Shown: piece after piece, positions 6,597-31,238 of the stretch
Layout: every line of letters begins with the position of its first letter
Position numbering within the stretch: the first letter of the stretch is position 1
Virus record (IMG/VR): IMGVR_UViG_3300044729_002663
Coordinates: 1 to 31,238 of that record
Source: a virus
Length of the DNA: 31,238 nucleotides
Strand: one strand, 5' to 3'
The notes under the pieces: model-generated
Told to the model about the DNA's origin: nothing
The model's database searches: none
Seen by the model: the letters and a program-made list of their open reading frames with translations, nothing else
Translations under genes and position numbers: made by a program

Positions 6597-8212
6597 AAAA
6601 TGAATTTCGATTTGGTTCTGGCCGAGATGGCAACGTAGTTATTTCTGGAAACACCACGCTTTCAAGAGATATGCACTATCGAACCTTAGAAGTTAAGCCA
6701 GCGGGTAATTTGAACACGGGCCGTTATCGAATCTATGTTTCAGAGCTTTTGACATTAGATGGGGTTATTCAAGCGAATGGAAATGATGCGTCCGGTGCTT
6801 CGGGTGGTGGTCCTTTAGGTGCCGCTACTCTTGGCGGTGGTTCAAGAGGAGGTAACGGCGGAGTTGGGGCGGGACAAGCAGGAACGTCTCAAACAAACGC
6901 CATGGGTGGCGCTGGAGCATCAGGAGGCTTAGGATCGGGTGGAGCTGCGGGCGCAGGAGGGACGATAACTGCACCAACGGCAGCAAATGGCGGTGTGCAA
7001 ATCTGGCAAAGTGGTCCATATGCCTGGAACCCTAATTTGCCAGCAAGTGCCACGAAATTTAGCGGTGGTTCTGGTGGTGGTTCTGGCGGTGGTTCGGGAA
7101 GTGCAAACGGTGGGGGATCAGGATCGGGCGCGGGTGTCGTTCATATTTATGCAGCGAAAATTATTGGAACAGGTGCGATTCAAGCCGTAGGCGGTAAAGG
7201 TGCTGCAGGAACTGCAGTTAACTGCGGCGGTGGCGGCGGCGGCGGAGGTGGTTGTGTGGTGGTCTGTTCGACCACTAGACAAGCGGACTCCGGCATAACT
7301 GTTCAAGTCTCCGGTGGAACCGGCGGACTTTCTGGTGGCGGAACTGGTGTTAATGGAAGTGCTGGAGCTGCTGGGCGTTCATTTTGGCTTGATGAGGATT
7401 CGTGGATCTATGGAAATGCTGCAGATGGAAATGCAACGCTTGGAAACACAACACTTTCAAGAGACGTTTATTATAATAATTTAACCGTAACCGCTGGGGC
7501 TGTTATTACGACAGCGGGCTATCGAATCTTTATTAAAGGCATTTTGAATTTAAATGGCACCGGAGTCATTCGACGAAATGGGACCGCTGCATCGGGCACA
7601 AGTGGAGCTGCTGCTCTTACTGGGAATATGACCGCTGCATCGGGAGCTGGTGGAAACGGTGGCACAACAAACGGCGTTGTCGGAACGGGTGGCACAAGCT
7701 CTTTAGGTGCTACTGGTGGAAAAGGTGGCAACGGCAGTGGTGGAAACGGTGGAAGTGCAACGGCAGTGGTGGCACCTGGCTCTACCGGTGGGGGAACTGG
7801 AATTCCTCGCAGCCTTCCTTTTGCGCAAATTCCTACGATTCATGGAAACTCATTTTCTCGTTATAACGGCGGCGGTGGGGGTTCTGGTGGTGGTGGAAAC
7901 GCAACGAATGCCGGTGGTGGGGGTGGATCTGGTGGCGGGTCTGCGCTTGTTTTTGCTCGTTACATCGCGCCCGGTGGCGGCATAATTGAAGCTAAAGGTG
8001 GTAATGGAGGCTTGTCTCTCATTACGGGATGTGGCGGTGGTGGCGGCGGAGGCGGCGGTTTAGTCGTACTTGTAACATCTCAACCGACAAATACTTTAGG
8101 GCTTACGATTGATGTAACCGGTGGCGCCGGTGGCGCCGGTGGTGGCAGTGGTGGACTTAACGGAGATTCTGGACAAACAGGGCGAATTTATATTTTAAGA
8201 GGTGGACAATGA
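6593..8212 (+). CDS. Glycine-rich fibre/adhesin-like protein, two tandem modules (539 aa)
   Basis: Two tandem copies of the module in the gene upstream. Copy one covers roughly residues 1-260. Copy two begins near the WIYGNAADGN segment at about residue 265. Each has the N-terminal NTTLSRD, YRI, G-x-L-x-L and NGN/NGT signature, a Gly/Ser/Ala-rich middle, and a poly-Gly run before a short hydrophobic strand (CVVVCS, GLVVLVTS). A 9-nt GGTGGCGCC unit repeats in tandem near 8121-8145, which could vary by slippage. The start overlaps the upstream stop as ATGA. A likely surface-exposed adhesin or fibre; function inferred. Confidence 0.65.
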   Translation: MKNEFRFGSGRDGNVVISGNTTLSRDMHYRTLEVKPAGNLNTGRYRIYVSELLTLDGVIQANGNDASGASGGGPLGAATLGGGSRGGNGGVGAGQAGTSQTNAMGGAGASGGLGSGGAAGAGGTITAPTAANGGVQIWQSGPYAWNPNLPASATKFSGGSGGGSGGGSGSANGGGSGSGAGVVHIYAAKIIGTGAIQAVGGKGAAGTAVNCGGGGGGGGGCVVVCSTTRQADSGITVQVSGGTGGLSGGGTGVNGSAGAAGRSFWLDEDSWIYGNAADGNATLGNTTLSRDVYYNNLTVTAGAVITTAGYRIFIKGILNLNGTGVIRRNGTAASGTSGAAALTGNMTAASGAGGNGGTTNGVVGTGGTSSLGATGGKGGNGSGGNGGSATAVVAPGSTGGGTGIPRSLPFAQIPTIHGNSFSRYNGGGGGSGGGGNATNAGGGGGSGGGSALVFARYIAPGGGIIEAKGGNGGLSLITGCGGGGGGGGGLVVLVTSQPTNTLGLTIDVTGGAGGAGGGSGGLNGDSGQTGRIYILRGGQ

Positions 8213-8505
8213 AAGAATGGAAATTGATTCGTAAAGCGGACGGCTATTTGTCCATGGTTTATTTTCAGGTTTCTCAGCCTGATTTTAATCCTGCTTTTGG
8301 AGAGGAAAAAGATTTTCAATGGAGTTCTCGTGATGTTTCTGTTTCTGAATATGATGCCATTAAACGAGACCAGTTTGTTGAGCAATTGCCGATATTTTTA
8401 GCTGAGTTTTTAGAGGCTTATCATGAAAAAGAGTCTGAAGCGAAACCCGCTAAAATGAATGCGTTGATGCAAAAAATCTCTGACTTGAAAGCGTCTATTC
8501 TATGA
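8209..8505 (+). CDS. Small fibre-associated protein, unknown function (98 aa)
   Basis: The ATG overlaps the stop of the glycine-rich gene (ATGA), which suggests coupled translation. The protein is charged, with aromatic residues in the first half and a helical C-terminus from about residue 60. Small proteins immediately after a fibre gene often act as fibre assembly chaperones, and that is the most likely role here, but no family is recognised. It overlaps the start of the next gene by four bases. Confidence 0.55.
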   Translation: MKEWKLIRKADGYLSMVYFQVSQPDFNPAFGEEKDFQWSSRDVSVSEYDAIKRDQFVEQLPIFLAEFLEAYHEKESEAKPAKMNALMQKISDLKASIL

Positions 8506-8780
8506 AAGATGACTTTGCGTCTTGGACGTTAAAGCAACGAGTGCCTTTGGGCTGGTTGCTGACAACGATCATTGTCATGCTAAGTTCTTTAGCTGCTGCC
8601 GTGTCATTAGGCTCTAATCTTCATGAGTATTCATCAAGACTTGAGGCACAAGAGCGGGCGATGATTGATGTGGATAACACGCAACTTGAACTTAGGCGAA
8701 AGCTTGAGGCTATTGATCAGAGACTCTCAAGAATTGAGGGACAATTAGAATTTATTAGGACCAGATTGAATGGACGTTAA
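8502..8780 (+). CDS. Membrane-anchored coiled-coil protein of the lysis cassette (i-spanin- or holin-like, 92 aa)
   Basis: One hydrophobic transmembrane segment spans about residues 16-39. It is followed by a charged coiled-coil-like region to the C-terminus with heptad-like Leu/Ile spacing (LELRRKLEAIDQRLSRIEG). This layout, a short cytoplasmic N-terminus, one membrane span and a periplasmic coiled coil, fits an inner-membrane spanin, although small phage holins can look similar. It overlaps the lytic transglycosylase gene by 11 bp and the upstream gene by four. The lysis context is strong; the exact role is not settled. Confidence 0.55.
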   Translation: MKDDFASWTLKQRVPLGWLLTTIIVMLSSLAAAVSLGSNLHEYSSRLEAQERAMIDVDNTQLELRRKLEAIDQRLSRIEGQLEFIRTRLNGR

Positions 8781-9318
8781 GCAACTCCGCAACCCGATGC
8801 ACAGTCGGTCTGAAATGTACCGAATGGTGCATGAGAATGCGCATTTGCTTAAGCTTCCATTTGAACATGACGCAAGACGTCTGTTGCTTGCGTTTTCAGA
8901 GTTAGAATCTTCTGTGGGAAAATTCAATTTTCGATACGAGCCAGCTTATGGGCTGCAGGGTCTTTACTATCGTCGAAGCAGTTTATTGAAAGAGCGATAC
9001 GAAGAGTTTGGGCCTATGGTCGCGATGTCTTATGGCCCATGGCAAATCATGTACATTGTAGCAGTTGAGCATGGCTTTAGTGGTCATCCTCTTGAGTTAA
9101 CAGATGGAAATGTTTCTCTTCCTTATGTCATAGAAAAAATGAATCGAGACGGACGAAGAGGGGCTGTGAGCCTTCGTATGATTGCTTCAGCTTATAATGG
9201 CGGCAATCCATCAGCTTTGTTTAGGAATGAAGCCGTTCAAAAATACGTCAATAAACTTGAGGCGGCCTATGATCGATGGAAGCAGATCAATATTGAATGG
9301 GAAAATTATAATTCTTAG
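8770..9318 (+). CDS. Lytic transglycosylase-like endolysin (182 aa)
   Basis: Motifs of the soluble lytic transglycosylase/goose-lysozyme fold appear in order. The probable catalytic Glu46 lies in SELESSVG. SYGPWQIM at 87-94 matches the S-x-G-x-x-Q-I/L-M motif. AYNGG lies at 141-145 and YVNKL at 159-163. These cleave the glycan strands of peptidoglycan. No signal peptide is seen, so export would need a holin. The gene sits between a membrane coiled-coil gene and a holin-like gene. An AGGA lies about 10 nt upstream of the ATG. Confidence 0.8.
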   Translation: MDVKQLRNPMHSRSEMYRMVHENAHLLKLPFEHDARRLLLAFSELESSVGKFNFRYEPAYGLQGLYYRRSSLLKERYEEFGPMVAMSYGPWQIMYIVAVEHGFSGHPLELTDGNVSLPYVIEKMNRDGRRGAVSLRMIASAYNGGNPSALFRNEAVQKYVNKLEAAYDRWKQINIEWENYNS

Positions 9319-10207: not shown

Positions 10208-10887
10208 TTGAATTTGCCTTGATCGTTCATAGGAATGAACAGGGCTTGCTCACCATCTATGACCACTCCACAGCCTAAAACCGGTTTTTCAATAATGTGC
10301 TTTCCATAAGAGAAGGCCTCTGAAGTGGTATCAATTAAGCACCCTGCGTTCATGGTAAAATGTTTATAGCGTTTTGTTTGAGAATAGAAAACGCCAGCCC
10401 TTGAGTGAAGATGACCCATGACTACGGACGATTTATATTTTTGATGTGCAAGTTGCCACGATCCTCCCGAGATACCTTCACCGTGGGTATAAAAAACACC
10501 ATCAATGAGAAGATGATCTCCAACCAGTGACCAACCTTTGACGAAACCCAAGATCTCTTCATAACGTCGTAAAACTTTCGCGGGCATTCCGCTGACCATG
10601 TTTTTTTTAAAAATCCTCATGCCGTGATTAGATTCCAAAACGTCGACATGAGGAAAGTCTTTGTAATAGCGCGCTAAAGATTCTTTCGCTAATTCCAGCT
10701 CTCTGGAAGCTGAGTGGAGTTCGGGATTCATCGGCCATCGAGCGGAGAAGGCGTGAAGATCAACTTCATCACCTAGGTTTACCACACGATCGGTTTTAAA
10801 AGTGTCTCTGACTCTGCACAGAAAATCTCGGGCTTTTGGATGATCCCACGGAGCGTGCATATCTGGCCAAACAAGAACTCTTGCCAC
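10204..10887 (-). CDS. Calcineurin-like metallophosphoesterase (227 aa)
   Basis: The metal-binding motifs of the superfamily are in order: D-x-H at 9-11, GD at 39-40, NH at 87-88 (the GNHD position), His135 in the THG motif, and GHLH at 158-161. Such enzymes hydrolyse phosphodiesters or phosphomonoesters; phage members include nucleases and 2',3'-cyclic phosphodiesterases. The start appears to be GTG at 10887 with no obvious ribosome site. It lies downstream of a putative terminator after the ERF gene and is coupled to a zinc-ribbon gene. The substrate cannot be read from sequence. Confidence 0.8.
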   Translation of the reverse strand: MARVLVWPDMHAPWDHPKARDFLCRVRDTFKTDRVVNLGDEVDLHAFSARWPMNPELHSASRELELAKESLARYYKDFPHVDVLESNHGMRIFKKNMVSGMPAKVLRRYEEILGFVKGWSLVGDHLLIDGVFYTHGEGISGGSWQLAHQKYKSSVVMGHLHSRAGVFYSQTKRYKHFTMNAGCLIDTTSEAFSYGKHIIEKPVLGCGVVIDGEQALFIPMNDQGKFK

Positions 10888-11007: not shown

Positions 11008-11484
11008 TTACGATACCGGTCGTGTGTTTGGTGTCATCATTTTTTCTGCGGGTTTTGCAAACGCCGGTTTAGAGGCTGTAAAAGCTGGACGAGGTTGCGG
11101 TCTTGGTTGTGCAGCTTCCGCATCGTCATCATCGGTTGTAAGGCCAACCAAAGCGCTTAAAGCGTATCGTCGCGCATAGCTCATACCACTTCCCATGGCT
11201 TGGGGTGTTTCATCTTTGGCGACTACGGGATAGATGCCGCTGATAGATTGACCCGACTTGTGAAGGAGAGTTGTACGAATAACAACCCGTCCTTCAACCA
11301 AGTCTGTGGTCTGTACAATGCTGAGTCCGTTTTTAGTCAACGGCTCTCGAATAGCATCCCAACAAGATTCGAGGGTAGCATATCTGCTTTTGAAGAAAGG
11401 ATTGTTAGCATCCTTCTTAGCAGGTTTCATTTCCGCTTGGGCTTTTGCCAAAGCTTCCGCCAGTTCATTAAGATTTTGGTTCAT
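11008..11484 (-). CDS. erf: ERF-family single-strand annealing protein (158 aa)
   Basis: The N-terminal two thirds match the ERF recombinase pattern: an amphipathic start, then NPFFKSRYATLESCWDAI, GLSIVQT, and the conserved GSGMSYARRYALSALVGL segment. The C-terminus is a Pro/Arg/Ala-rich disordered tail. ERF proteins bind single-stranded DNA and anneal it during phage recombination and genome circularisation. The gene lies downstream of a Gp157-like gene, with which it overlaps by 17 bp, and of a RusA-like resolvase. GAGGT is 10 nt upstream of the ATG. Confidence 0.88.
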   Translation of the reverse strand: MNQNLNELAEALAKAQAEMKPAKKDANNPFFKSRYATLESCWDAIREPLTKNGLSIVQTTDLVEGRVVIRTTLLHKSGQSISGIYPVVAKDETPQAMGSGMSYARRYALSALVGLTTDDDDAEAAQPRPQPRPAFTASKPAFAKPAEKMMTPNTRPVS

Positions 11485-12025
11485 AGTCGAGGTACCTCAT
11501 AGCTGGTTTGATATTGAGTCGATGTTTTTGCTCGATAATGCCGTAGCGATTATCAGAAATTTCGCCCGATTCAATCGCATTCATGACTGCTTTTTTGTCT
11601 AAGCTATAGGTGATTTTGGTTTTGACGAATGGATCGTTTTGAGAGGCCAGACTTTCAAGCTCAACGTCACCAAGACCAGAGTGTAACGACTTCGGGTTTC
11701 TTTTTACGCTAAGCTCAAAAGCCTGACCTTTTATCGGTTTGTCGTGGTGCAGAATAATCGAAACGAAGTATTCCTCTAAGCGTTCTTTGAGCTTTTGAAG
11801 AGATTTAGCTTTTGCATAACGCTTATCAGCTTCTTCTTTAAAATATTCAGTTTCGAGTGCGAGTTTTTGGATGAATGTTGCGATGGAGTCGACTTTGTGC
11901 TCAACGGCGCTTTCGTGGTCCCTGATGAGGTGCTCCAAGCTTTCATCAATAACACCTTCGTTGGTTTCGATGGCATGGTCAATAAGCTCCTGCTGTTCGA
12001 GTAAAAGTTGAATTAGGGTTGCCAT
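11468..12025 (-). CDS. Gp157-like protein (siphovirus Gp157 family, 185 aa)
   Basis: The sequence has the family layout: a helical N-terminal half, rich in Glu and Lys and coiled-coil-like, then a beta-rich C-terminal domain with LSVKRNPKSL and a terminal GIIEQKHRLNIKP segment. Members of this family are commonly encoded beside ERF or other single-strand annealing proteins, and one was linked to phage resistance in Streptococcus. GGAGG lies 6 nt upstream of the ATG. A recombination-accessory role is inferred from gene context. Confidence 0.75.
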   Translation of the reverse strand: MATLIQLLLEQQELIDHAIETNEGVIDESLEHLIRDHESAVEHKVDSIATFIQKLALETEYFKEEADKRYAKAKSLQKLKERLEEYFVSIILHHDKPIKGQAFELSVKRNPKSLHSGLGDVELESLASQNDPFVKTKITYSLDKKAVMNAIESGEISDNRYGIIEQKHRLNIKPAMRYLDYEPKS

Positions 12026-12186
12026 GAAACCTCCGGCTCAACAAAAACGGTATGAGCTTCTTTGCGGTAGAGTGCTAATTCATCTTTGAGGCGTTGGTTT
12101 TCAGATTTCAATTCTCGATTTTCTTTCAAAAGAAAATGAATCAAACGACTTGAGGTCTGAGAGACCAGTTCAGCTTTGTAATCCAT
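12013..12186 (-). CDS. 57-aa coiled-coil protein
   Basis: A short frame with ATG at 12186 and TAA ending at 12013. Its last 13 bp overlap the start of the Gp157-like gene, and that gene's ribosome site lies inside it. The central 30 residues form a clear coiled coil with Leu/Asn heptads (LLKENRELKSENQRLKDEL), a leucine-zipper-like pattern. No strong ribosome site precedes the ATG. It could be a small regulator or an assembly partner of the recombination proteins. The coding call rests on overlap, heptad pattern and operon position. Confidence 0.55.
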   Translation of the reverse strand: MDYKAELVSQTSSRLIHFLLKENRELKSENQRLKDELALYRKEAHTVFVEPEVSWQP

Positions 12187-12223
12187 GGGGTGGATTTATC
12201 ACAACTAAACCAACTCGGTAGGT

Positions 12224-12256
12224 GTAACTTTTGTTACCACTGGTAACTATTGTTCC
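12224..12256. repeat. Phased GTAAC/GTTAC half-sites (possible operator)
   Basis: Alternating inverted half-sites occur at 12224 (GTAAC), 12233 (GTTAC), 12243 (GTAAC) and 12252 (GTTCC, one mismatch), 9 to 10 bp apart. Two overlapping palindromes result: GTAAC-tttt-GTTAC and GTTACC-act-GGTAAC. The array spans the 3' end of the rusA-like gene and the 60-bp gap before the 57-aa gene. The roughly one-helical-turn phasing suits cooperative protein binding. It is not GC-rich enough for a typical terminator. Function unknown. Confidence 0.4.
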
Positions 12257-12657
12257 AGGTATTCTTCTAGGTAGATGTCGGTGTAACTTTCGTTTCTCGG
12301 TGAAACTTTTTTTTCTACAGTGACACGCCAGAAGGTTGAATCGTCACAGTACATCAGCGAAGCCAAGGCGTCTAAAAGGGCTTTTAAACGGTTTTGAGCG
12401 TCTATGCGTTTAAACGTCCCCTTTTTCGTTATAAGCGACGATCTATCGAAGTAGCACTCTACCCTTACACTGAAGCGTTTGTTCGCAAGGGAGAGCCTCC
12501 TGGGCTGTTCTAATTCCTTCTGTGCAAACATTGCGTAGTCCTCGACGAGTTCTAAAAACTTTAAATACTCTTTGGTTTTAAAGCGCTGATTAGGTCTGCG
12601 ACCGTTTTGATGAAGTTTGTTGTCAGACGGTGGGAAGGGAAAGTTCTTAAGCCACAC
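12247..12657 (-). CDS. rusA: RusA-like Holliday-junction resolvase (136 aa)
   Basis: The N-terminal FPFPPSDNK motif matches the RusA opening strand-loop. The core RIDAQNRLKALLDALASL followed by YCDDSTF fits the RusA active-site region, with acidic residues at about 86, 96, 105 and 106. The usual second Asp of the D-x-D-N motif appears to be Gln88, so catalysis may rely on a variant site. The length is usual for the family. The only in-frame start near the front is GTG at 12657, directly after a stop codon and without a clear ribosome site. It resolves recombination or replication branches in DNA. Confidence 0.8.
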   Translation of the reverse strand: MWLKNFPFPPSDNKLHQNGRRPNQRFKTKEYLKFLELVEDYAMFAQKELEQPRRLSLANKRFSVRVECYFDRSSLITKKGTFKRIDAQNRLKALLDALASLMYCDDSTFWRVTVEKKVSPRNESYTDIYLEEYLEQ

Positions 12658-15679: not shown

Positions 15680-16123
15680 ATGCAGAACTCTCGCAAGGGC
15701 ATAGGCGGTCGGCCCACTAAGTACAAGCCTGAATACTGTTCAAGACTTATTGAACTATGTGCCCAGGGCCTTTCAAGACGAGCCCTTTGTGCTGAAATCG
15801 GCATTTCAACAGAAACTTTCTACGATTGGGTCAAAAAGATTCCTGAGTTTTCTGATGCGTACAGGAAAGGCGAAGCTGCCGCGTCTCACTTTTACGAATC
15901 TAAAATGCTTGAGGGTGGGTTAGGCAGGATTAAAGGCTTTAATGTCATGGCTCTGACTTTCCTCATGAAGAATCGCTACCCCAAAGAGTTTCGAGATAAG
16001 CAAGACGTAGAACTGTCAGGAAATGAAAGTCATCCCATTAAAATCGAAACCTCGGAAGCAGCTCAGTCATTGACTGATGCCGAACTCAAGAAACGCTTGA
16101 AAGATCTTCTCAAAGACTCGTAG
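15680..16123 (+). CDS. terS: Small terminase subunit (147 aa)
   Basis: The N-terminus GGRPTKYKPEY leads into a helix-turn-helix at about residues 29-51 (LSRRALCAEIGISTETFYDWV), typical of the DNA-binding domain of small terminases. A helical oligomerisation region follows with MALTFLMKNRYPKEFRDK, also common in this family, and an acidic C-terminus. It recognises the packaging site and regulates the large subunit. It is the first gene of the structural operon, after a terminator, 1.1 kb ahead of the large subunit. Confidence 0.8.
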   Translation: MQNSRKGIGGRPTKYKPEYCSRLIELCAQGLSRRALCAEIGISTETFYDWVKKIPEFSDAYRKGEAAASHFYESKMLEGGLGRIKGFNVMALTFLMKNRYPKEFRDKQDVELSGNESHPIKIETSEAAQSLTDAELKKRLKDLLKDS

Positions 16124-16752: not shown

Positions 16753-17021
16753 ACGAAGGACAACGAAGAATGTCTGACCGGTTTTTTGGTCGATTTGGGA
16801 AGATCCCCACCCCGACTTGTAACGTCTGTTCACAACCTGTGAATGAATTTGGCATCAGTTTCAATCCCGACAACAGCACCATGACCTTTTCGGTGAAGTG
16901 CCATGGAGAGAAGGAAGACGCCACGATGTGGTATGACAAAGTCATGTCTCTGCCCGATGAGACCGTCCCCGTCGTTCAAAAAGCTTTCGCTAATCAACCC
17001 AAACGGAGGATCATTATATGA
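16749..17021 (+). CDS. Small Cys-containing phage protein (90 aa)
   Basis: The ATG overlaps the upstream stop (ATGA), with GAAAGGA 5 nt before it. A CNVCSQPV knuckle at about residues 24-31 and a KCHGE motif near 50-54 suggest a zinc site, in the style of small hypothetical proteins between terminase genes of podoviruses. Function unknown. Confidence 0.6.
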   Translation: MNEGQRRMSDRFFGRFGKIPTPTCNVCSQPVNEFGISFNPDNSTMTFSVKCHGEKEDATMWYDKVMSLPDETVPVVQKAFANQPKRRIII

Positions 17022-17311
17022 AAATCAAAGAGATCAAAACTTCGCTTTCAGTTTACTTCTCGGGCTCTGAGCGCTTCCACTTTGCTTCGGGTACAAGCCA
17101 CATCTACCCCTACGGCCTTGAATTGACCTATCTAGAAAAACCCGAAGGCGTTCTGGTCAAAAGCAAAGACGCTGAAGTCTGGGTTAACCTTGCGAACATT
17201 TCATACATGAAGTTCTTTGACGAGATCGCCGAGACAGAAGGGGATGTTTCACGTGAAACAATCAAAAAGCGAGGACGCCCAGCAAAAGTTGATACCGCTA
17301 TCGCAAGCTGA
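17018..17311 (+). CDS. Small phage protein overlapping the large terminase gene (97 aa)
   Basis: Begins on ATGA with the preceding gene, with CGGAGG upstream. The first 70 residues are beta-rich. The C-terminus becomes basic and includes DVSRET, which is the translation of the parS palindrome in this frame, then KKRGRPAK, an AT-hook-like basic motif. It overlaps the terminase gene by about 60 bp. Function unknown. The C-terminal GRP core could bind the minor groove of AT-rich DNA, but this is speculative. Confidence 0.6.
   Translation: MKIKEIKTSLSVYFSGSERFHFASGTSHIYPYGLELTYLEKPEGVLVKSKDAEVWVNLANISYMKFFDEIAETEGDVSRETIKKRGRPAKVDTAIAS
17245..17260. promoter_or_regulatory. parS: parS: perfect 16-bp chromosomal-type ParB binding site
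   Basis: TGTTTCACGTGAAACA is a perfect palindrome identical to the consensus centromere-like parS site recognised by chromosomal ParB across many bacterial phyla. It lies inside the overlap of two genes. One frame reads DVSRET, the other MFHVKQ. A GTG that is a likely start of the large terminase lies in its core. No ParB or ParA gene is visible in this genome, so host ParB is the probable ligand. A partial match occurs at 13079-13090 and is not symmetrical. Confidence 0.85.
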
Positions 17312-18674
17312 TCTTCTAGCCGAAGCGAAGCGCCGCTTTATCGACAAAGATCTCAAGCCGGTCGATATTCTTTTTGAAAAACAAAAGCTGTTCCATCGGG
17401 ACTCTCACCGATTTAAAACCGCTTTAAACACACGAAGGAGTGGTAAATCATTCCTTGCCGCAGTGCGTCTTCTCGAAGCTGCAAAGACAGGGCTCTCTCA
17501 AAATCCCTACCTGGCTTTGACTCGGGAATCAGCCCGAAGGATTTTGTGGCCCACCCTCACAGATCTCATCGAGAAGTTTAAAATTCCCTGCACGCCTAGT
17601 GAATCATCTCTCACCGTTTCGTTTCCTAATAAAGCCGAGATCTTTCTGGTCGGAGCAGATCAAAAGAACTTTGCCGCTCGTCTTCGAGGGATTAAGGCTC
17701 GCCGAGCCGTTATTGATGAGGGCCAGGACTTTAAAGATCATCTCGGGGATCTGATCGACTCCATTCTGATTCCAACTTTGGTTGATTTTAACGGAGACCT
17801 CGACATCTACGGAACGCCTGGAATCCGACCCACCGGGTTCTTTTACGAGATTACGACTCAAGAGCGTGGCTTTAAACAGTTTACTTGGTCAGTTCTCGAT
17901 AACCCTTTCGTCCCGAATGCTCGAGAGTTCATGGAAGAGATCCTGAAACGACGAAACTGGACTGAAGAGAATCCAACCTACCGCCGAGAATGGCTCGGGG
18001 AATGGGTGCTTGATCTCGACGCCTTACTCTTCAAATTCAATCGGCAAAAAAACACAGTCTCAGAACGCCCCTCAGGCATCGCTTGGACCAATGTTTTAGG
18101 CATCGACCTCGGCTTTAATGACGCTACAGCCTTTGTGGTCATGAGCTATTCCGAAGCCTCAAAACAGACCTTTGTGATTCACTCCGAAGCTCACGCCGAG
18201 ATGATTCCTTCCGAAATCGCAGAGAAGACAAAGACTCTCATTGATCGTTTTAAGATCGCTTCCATCGTGGCTGATACGGGAGGACTAGGAAAATCGATTG
18301 CGGAAGAGCTTAAACGAAGACACGGGCTCCCTATTAAACCCGCTGTGAAGGTCGACAAAGCCACTCGAATTTCGTTCATCAATGGAGACTTCATCGACCG
18401 AAACCTATTTGTGCTCTCTCATTGCAACGCTTTAATTGATCAGCTCGAAACCGTGGCTAAAAACGAGAAGGGTTTGGAAGACGATCGAACGCCTGTCGAT
18501 TTGTGTGATGCGATGCTTTACGCCTACAACGAATCAAAACACTGGAGTTTTGAACCAAAAGACCCCAAACTTGATCGGTATTCCGAGGATTTCGTTCTCG
18601 ATCAACTCGAGAAGGAAGCTCAACGAATGATCGCTCTTCGCCGAGAGCAAGAACAAGAGGAGGGGCTTCTTTGA
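17253..18674 (+). CDS. terL: Large terminase subunit, ATPase and nuclease (about 473 aa)
   Basis: The packaging motor. Numbered from the GTG start, a Walker-A-like TRRSGKS lies at about 60-66, Walker B AVIDEGQ at 152-158 and the coupling motif YGTPG at 186-190. A RNase-H-like nuclease domain follows with Asp285 (GIDLG), Asp341 (VADTGG) and an acidic pair near Asp419 (VDLCDAMLYA). AAGGGG sits nine bases before GTG 17253, which decides this start. ATG 17244 and TTG 17217 are alternatives. The start lies within the parS palindrome. The portal gene follows after one small gene. Confidence 0.9.
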   Translation: MKQSKSEDAQQKLIPLSQADLLAEAKRRFIDKDLKPVDILFEKQKLFHRDSHRFKTALNTRRSGKSFLAAVRLLEAAKTGLSQNPYLALTRESARRILWPTLTDLIEKFKIPCTPSESSLTVSFPNKAEIFLVGADQKNFAARLRGIKARRAVIDEGQDFKDHLGDLIDSILIPTLVDFNGDLDIYGTPGIRPTGFFYEITTQERGFKQFTWSVLDNPFVPNAREFMEEILKRRNWTEENPTYRREWLGEWVLDLDALLFKFNRQKNTVSERPSGIAWTNVLGIDLGFNDATAFVVMSYSEASKQTFVIHSEAHAEMIPSEIAEKTKTLIDRFKIASIVADTGGLGKSIAEELKRRHGLPIKPAVKVDKATRISFINGDFIDRNLFVLSHCNALIDQLETVAKNEKGLEDDRTPVDLCDAMLYAYNESKHWSFEPKDPKLDRYSEDFVLDQLEKEAQRMIALRREQEQEEGLL

Positions 18675-30460: not shown

Positions 30461-31238
30461 ATGAGCGTCCCACCGAATGAATATTTAAATTTGCTACAAG
30501 GAATGAATCAGCCAATGCCAGAGCGTAATTTCACGCCTGGCCCTGGAATGGGTCCCGTAGCAATGCCTCAACCTGTTCAAGAAGTTTATTTAGATGAGTT
30601 CCCGCAACCAGTTGTACCTCAAGTGCAAGCGCCTATTCAACCGATGCAAGCTCCGATGCAGGCTCCCTCGCCATTTTCATATGGTGGAATGGAAGAAAGT
30701 CTTTTGCGAAGTGCAGGCCTTCAAACTCAAGCCGGTAGAGGACTAATGCAAGCTCAGCAACAAGCCGCTGCACAAGAGCAAAGAATTTATCAAGCTCAAC
30801 AACAAATGCTCGCTGAGCAAGAATCGCGCGTGAAACAAGAGCAGGCTGATTATGATCAAAAGGTTGCTCCTGCGATTGAACGCCTACAAGCTTTAGGAAA
30901 TGAAATTCAAGGCGCAAAGTATGAGGGCTTTTGGGCAAAAGCGAGCACTCCACAAAAGATTGGTGGCGCTCTCGCTGTTGGATTAGGCGCTCTGGGAGCG
31001 GGTTTGACGGGTGGTCAAAATACTGCCATGCAAATCATCAACAAAGCGATTGATGATGATTATCGAAATTGGCAGGCAAACATCGATGCGAAAAACAAAT
31101 CCTTTTTGAACCAGCGTCAATATATCAACGATTTGCAAGGCCAGTTTAAAGACAAGCGAGAACTGGCTTTAGCTCAAAAAGCATTAGCCTATGATCGAGC
31201 CAATGCTCAGTTGATGGAGATTGCTTCGAAACGAAAAG
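30461..31238 (+). CDS. Internal virion/ejection-like protein, N-terminal part (continues at base 214)
   Basis: GGAGGG precedes the ATG at 30461. The frame is open to the end of the window, then resumes in frame in the left copy and stops at 920, giving 494 residues. The first 90 residues are Pro/Gln/Met-rich. A Gln/Ala-rich coiled coil follows at about 90-165. A Gly/Ala-rich hydrophobic segment at about 167-187 (IGGALAVGLGALGAGLTGG) could enter a membrane. With the genes on either side it forms a trio resembling podoviral ejection proteins. No catalytic motif is seen. Confidence 0.7.
   Translation, partial: MSVPPNEYLNLLQGMNQPMPERNFTPGPGMGPVAMPQPVQEVYLDEFPQPVVPQVQAPIQPMQAPMQAPSPFSYGGMEESLLRSAGLQTQAGRGLMQAQQQAAAQEQRIYQAQQQMLAEQESRVKQEQADYDQKVAPAIERLQALGNEIQGAKYEGFWAKASTPQKIGGALAVGLGALGAGLTGGQNTAMQIINKAIDDDYRNWQANIDAKNKSFLNQRQYINDLQGQFKDKRELALAQKALAYDRANAQLMEIASKRK
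31026..31238. repeat. Contig-end overlap, right copy
   Basis: Matches bases 1-213 with three silent differences. The join allows a single uninterrupted reading frame across the ends. This copy, or the left one, should be removed to obtain the unit genome. Confidence 0.9.

Follow-up and report, generated by a model that had tools for sequence, protein, structure and literature searches.

Gene Content around the Palindrome

The window, by which we mean the whole stretch of DNA that was analysed, is a virus record from IMG/VR, 31,238 bases long. Its two ends (1-213 and 31026-31238) overlap by 213 bp and are identical at 210 of the 213 positions, indicating that little of the genome is probably missing; the overlap with its 3 mismatches probably reflects circular permutation or terminal redundancy of a near-complete genome, with variation between strains. 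A perfect palindrome lies between the terminase genes terS and terL, and the features around it are as follows.

11008-12657, minus strand: recombination cluster of DNA-metabolism genes (ERF / Gp157 / RusA)
15680-16123, plus strand: terS, terminase small subunit (phrog_309, 1.4e-32; PF20901)
17018-17311, plus strand: 97-aa ORF, frame GDVSRETIKKRGRPAKV, whose 3' part holds parS (no Pfam or PHROG match)
17224-17287 (boundaries approximate), plus strand: segment around parS whose counterpart, comprising parS and an RGRP-encoding tail, is shortened away in the relative L257 (alignment and tblastn)
17244-18674, plus strand: terL, terminase large subunit (phrog_2, 3.8e-38; PF17289, 7.6e-10)
17245-17260, no strand assigned: chromosomal-type parS, perfect palindrome TGTTTCACGTGAAACA (exact single match; 16/16 in the relatives L002, L003, and L004)

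Bacterial chromosomal parS sites were reportedly described by Livny et al. in 2007. The sequence at 17245-17260, which a preliminary description of this DNA had called a perfect parS, matched the 16-bp palindromic consensus of chromosomal parS, TGTTNCACGTGAAACA, at 16 of 16 positions and by sequence belongs to the chromosomal type (consensus as given in PMC7022226; also in PMC10197239). TGTTTCACGTGAAACA was the sole match within three mismatches in all 31,238 bases, and the second-best 16-mer differed from it at four positions. Under an order-2 Markov model the exact 16-mer is expected 1.5e-5 times in the window, which rules out a chance origin and agrees with the earlier estimate of far less than one occurrence. 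The site is read as V-S-R-E-T in the 97-aa ORF and as M-F-H-V-K-Q from a possible terL ATG; judging from the reading frames, terL may start either at this ATG (17244, inside parS) or at a TTG at about 17289. The parS segment (17245-17290) also codes for the end of the 97-aa ORF product, a KRGRPAKV tail that resembles an AT-hook. A hairpin in the RNA around the start of terL was considered and rejected, as the region folded no better than shuffled sequences (z = 0.04).

In six-frame searches of the record, no match was obtained for ParB_N (PF02195), ParA-type AAA_31 (PF13614), or the tyrosine integrase domain (PF00589); serine recombinases were covered through Pfam scans of the main ORFs only. 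The reported lack of ParA, ParB, and, for the tyrosine type, integrase was thus confirmed. By these domains the virus is neither an integrating temperate phage, which would carry an integrase, nor a phage-plasmid with its own partition system, which would carry ParA and/or ParB; parS without parA or parB is a feature that it shares with the orphan parS of the phi29 type. Given the perfect parS and no ParA or ParB, the proposal that host ParB is the likely ligand is supported as a prediction. No lysogeny or plasmid-maintenance genes were recognised in the window. The statement that replication genes are lacking stood in part: no gene could be recognised for a polymerase, primase, or helicase, but the window has genes for an annealing protein (ERF), a Gp157-like protein, and a RusA-like resolvase, and an HNH nuclease is encoded as well. 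The window also encodes a P22-like portal and a major capsid protein, and Rfam and tRNA scans returned nothing. The host search gave no DNA match to the window among reference phages and no match for the capsid; TerL showed only about 25% identity to Pelagibacter and other phages, the portal had one weak match (a Cellulosimicrobium phage), and the sole hit in a scan of genome contigs was a TerL fragment with 27% identity in a Thermaerobacter MAG.

Conservation of the Palindrome in Close Relatives

Four close relatives were compared with the window, of which L001 is identical to it and hence not an independent lineage. L002 and L003 (about 82.5% DNA identity) and L004 (73.5%) all kept parS at 16 of 16 positions, and homologues of the 97-aa ORF were present in each of the three. 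Across a 4.2-kb alignment of three lineages, in which 66% of columns were invariant, the longest invariant run was 17243-17260 (18 bp; the next longest was 14 bp), and indels flanked this run on both sides. Invariance in the 97-aa ORF was 0.75, 0.89, and 0.36 at the first, second, and third codon positions, respectively; at these rates, and with three lineages only, 16 invariant columns would arise with a chance of about 3e-4. In L004, a stop closes the MFHVKQ frame before the conserved TerL sequence, yet parS is perfect (16/16). A downstream start is therefore the only possibility for terL in that genome, and TerL coding does not explain the conservation of parS.

Pure coding constraint was ruled out by the frame break in L004 together with the third-position rates. 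Conservation beyond what the codons demand, which the preliminary description had singled out for checking, was borne out by the 18-bp run, the L004 frame, and the value of 3e-4. From these alignments, parS appears to be constrained beyond coding, and the site looks selected.

Limits of Conservation in Wider Relatives

A deeper scan of viral_contigs with a TerL profile found no further relatives, and a search with a portal profile recovered 33, picked regardless of parS. The nearest informative genome, L257 (TerL 72%), has a homologue of the 97-aa ORF (1051-1305), but the whole segment of about 40 bp is cleanly missing from it, so that parS and the RGRP tail are gone together. This points to acquisition or loss at the level of lineages and not to a fixed trait of the family. 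In the available DNA of the other portal-selected relatives, many of which are fragments, no parS was found within 2 mismatches except in L280, a contig identical with L064. That distant genome (portal 28% at the amino acid level), which was first fetched because of its parS and so is not an unbiased relative, has its parS between genes, some 2.4 kb upstream of terL. Its terL ORF (6633-9062, minus strand) is apparently split by an intein-like insertion (ECFPAGTIVDG ... VHNCQSD), maybe with a nuclease gene.

The preliminary description had held that absence or decay of the palindrome in close relatives would speak against its being used. It was intact in the three nearest lineages but absent from L257, and retention by selection is accordingly a finding for three lineages, with the site missing from L257 and most distant relatives. 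On the alignments, parS enters or leaves a genome as one compact unit, and, judged from L257 and the available stretches of most distant relatives, the wider group can do without it.

The Same 16-mer in Other Phages

The exact 16-mer occurred in 286 of 50,697 reference phage records, which are not independent (87 are Listeria, and many of these 87 are short unannotated contigs possibly holding host DNA). These records held 824 places, both strands counted, where about 0.5 would be expected by chance in the 2.3 billion bases; a permuted palindrome had 0 matches in the same records. The carriers included phi29-like podoviruses; Herelleviridae of Lactobacillus and Listeria; Roseobacter and Vibrio phages; actinophages of Microbacterium, Arthrobacter, Gordonia, Rhodococcus, and Clavibacter; microviruses, among them Spiroplasma phage 4; and an inovirus in which the exact 16-mer occurs six times. 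The phi29-like and P100-like carriers are generally regarded as virulent. No enterobacterial phage was seen among the matches listed or the ten commonest names, which is suggestive and not a count. Enterobacteriaceae, Pasteurellaceae, and Mycoplasmataceae are without chromosomal par genes (PMC7022226). PF02195 was absent (E<=0.001) from 16 of 19 reference records with exact or near-exact sites, or 17 of 20 with phi29 included; the parS-carrying actinophages KaiHaiDragon and Warren encode a PF02195 protein.

In IMG/VR, at least 120 stretches contained the exact 16-mer, and these fell into 90 clusters by blastn around the site. Of 50 parS-bearing records tested there, 48 had no ParB_N match at E<=0.001, although many are fragments. 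The first control, the permuted palindrome TGTTCTACGTAGAACA, also gave at least 120 viral_contigs stretches (L127-L246) and was a poor control, since 75 of the 120 lay in one homologous cluster in which the sequence is apparently coding; it formed 34 clusters in total, versus 90 for parS. The second control palindrome, TTGTTCACGTGAACAA, gave 5 stretches. Among 15 sites inspected in annotated phages (the Warren site has one mismatch), nine were intergenic, two overlapped a start codon, and four lay inside genes.

Two genomes were observed with unusual arrangements. Bajarodino virus 3 (L252; an inovirus of 6183 bp) has exact parS sites at 704, 740, 3041, 3583, 4380, and 5921 and no ParB_N match, the densest orphan parS array seen. 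In Vibrio phage phi 3 (KP280063), the exact parS at 2934 lies in the left terminal repeat and is therefore present twice per genome.

A partial literature search, with most subscription journals outside it, found no survey of orphan parS sites in phages, and their breadth looks under-described. We lean slightly towards the view that offering an orphan parS to host ParB is a general, convergent phage strategy wherever hosts have ParABS, spanning virulent and temperate tailed dsDNA phages as well as filamentous inoviruses and gokushovirus-like microviruses, with the window as an independent lineage. This breadth is the more interesting part of the results and is directly testable in cultured phages.

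Discussion

We propose that the palindrome is a functional orphan parS and that the phage would supply the site only. The chromosomal ParB of the host, whichever bacterium that may be, would bind it, close as a CTP-dependent clamp, and spread over the adjoining phage DNA, and host ParA, perhaps together with SMC, would then treat the resulting partition complex as it does a short stretch around the host's own origin. The likeliest benefit would be that an unintegrated phage genome is kept with the nucleoid and passed to daughter cells when lysis is deferred, as in a carrier or pseudolysogenic state. Binding by host ParB is likely. For the use of the site, retention and segregation of unintegrated phage DNA is our best guess among the uses that the preliminary description had listed, with a probability of roughly 0.5, because of the precedent of phi29 and Spo0J and the wide spread of the site in phages. 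The support in hand consists of an exact single site, no par genes, constraint beyond coding, compact gain or loss, and occurrence in many unrelated phages; from it we infer ParB binding in the window's host, spreading, and a role in retention or segregation. What counts against this reading is that the site is missing from L257 and, in the available stretches, from most distant relatives, that lysogeny and plasmid-maintenance genes were not recognised, that several carriers (phi29-like and P100-like) are generally regarded as virulent, and that a location next to terL would fit a role in regulation too.

That regulatory role is the main rival, in which host ParB also binds but the use is transcriptional: spreading from parS would lower expression of the packaging and late operon (terL, portal, and capsid) and couple it to the ParB state of the host. 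The site lies exactly at the terL start, and its constraint in L004 is independent of terL coding; moreover, ParB represses promoters beside parS3 and parS4 in Pseudomonas aeruginosa (PMC5521831), and long-range silencing is exerted by KorB, a relative of ParB (PMC11790492). However, a Bacillus subtilis spo0J null mutant had no significant expression change (PMC5521831), the promoter beside the window's parS is putative only, and as a general role silencing fits poorly with other phages, whose sites are found at many different gene boundaries and are not tied to terL (in L064 it is the intergenic site far upstream). We regard this explanation as rather unlikely. A more doubtful one is that host ParB is titrated or misdirected, with phage copies competing with chromosomal parS so that host segregation is perturbed or SMC is drawn onto phage DNA. 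Phage genomes accumulate to many copies, the bajarodino inoviruses with six exact sites in 6.2 kb would suit such a role, and the mobile element SGI1 destabilises its helper plasmid likewise (PMC10954446), but the window's single site would be a weak titrator early in infection, whereas one site is enough for retention.

The remaining two explanations dispense with host ParB. If a different regulator, of phage or host origin, recognised this site, such as the ParB-like Noc or an HTH repressor, its palindromic operator would also be conserved as DNA, and some parS-carrying actinophages (KaiHaiDragon and Warren) do encode a PF02195 protein; yet the window's sequence agrees with the general chromosomal parS consensus at every base and recurs in phages of unrelated hosts and families, unlike a phage-specific operator, which makes this quite improbable. 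Least probable is an accident of coding or RNA, in which two overlapping frames, or a hairpin at the terL start, fixed the sequence. The site does sit in overlapping frames, but it is perfect where the terL frame is broken (L004), coding in the 97-aa frame by itself would leave third positions free to vary, as they do elsewhere in the ORF, the ORF of L257 survives without the parS segment, and the folding score matches that of shuffles.

If use of the site for retention and segregation is true, a 16-bp tag gives a phage the chromosome-segregation machine of its host without a partition protein of its own. It would account for how phages that encode neither an integrase nor par genes are maintained as cells divide, would add a new cargo to ParABS biology, and would provide a sequence-only marker of deferred or carrier infection, testable in P100-like Listeria phages and in Microbacterium, Gordonia, Arthrobacter, and Lactobacillus phages.

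Comparison with Known Systems

Bacterial chromosomal parS is the identical 16-mer, but in the window it is carried on a phage genome of about 31 kb, singly and without parAB. One parS is enough for chromosome segregation in P. aeruginosa (PMC4368675). Phage-plasmids, such as P1 and extrachromosomal actinophages (PMC11652158, PMC7157519), resemble the proposed system in the centromere-based upkeep of unintegrated phage DNA but encode their own ParA and/or ParB, whereas the window encodes neither. Phages with sites for host CtrA, for which lytic deferment has been proposed (PMC9437464), likewise bring no more than the sites at which a host cell-cycle protein binds; the difference is that CtrA is a transcription factor and that its sites are multiple and are not a centromere. 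SGI1, a mobile element with parS-like sites only, is stabilised by the ParABS of another replicon and destabilises its helper plasmid by hijacking the parABS of the IncC plasmid (PMC10954446). The likeness is that an element brings parS-like sites alone and is partitioned by another replicon's ParABS; however, SGI1 is not a phage, the ParB is plasmid-encoded, and what is recognised is the IncC parS rather than the chromosomal consensus.

The closest parallel is phi29 (L289), which has four identical TGTTTCACGTGGAACA sites (equal to TGTTCCACGTGAAACA) at 10445, 15903, 17243, and 18760. These TGTTCCACGTGAAACA sites fit the consensus TGTTNCACGTGAAACA (PMC7022226), and the one at 17243 directly follows the packaging ATPase gene 16, whose stop is at 17242; the related B103 has one perfect site and one with a single mismatch. 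As in the window, the same domain test gave no PF02195 match in phi29, so that both carry orphan parS-type sites without par genes, and in phi29 host ParB is the reported partner: PMC9437464, citing Meijer et al. 2005, reports that the phi29 chromosome is entrapped in spores by Spo0J, the ParB of B. subtilis. The two differ in that phi29 has four sites to the window's one and is an unrelated, protein-primed phage of 19 kb with a spore-forming host, and in that the role is experimentally supported in phi29 and inferred for the window. The use of an orphan parS through host ParB is already known in principle from phi29, and the window adds a new lineage, in which one constrained site lies next to terL.
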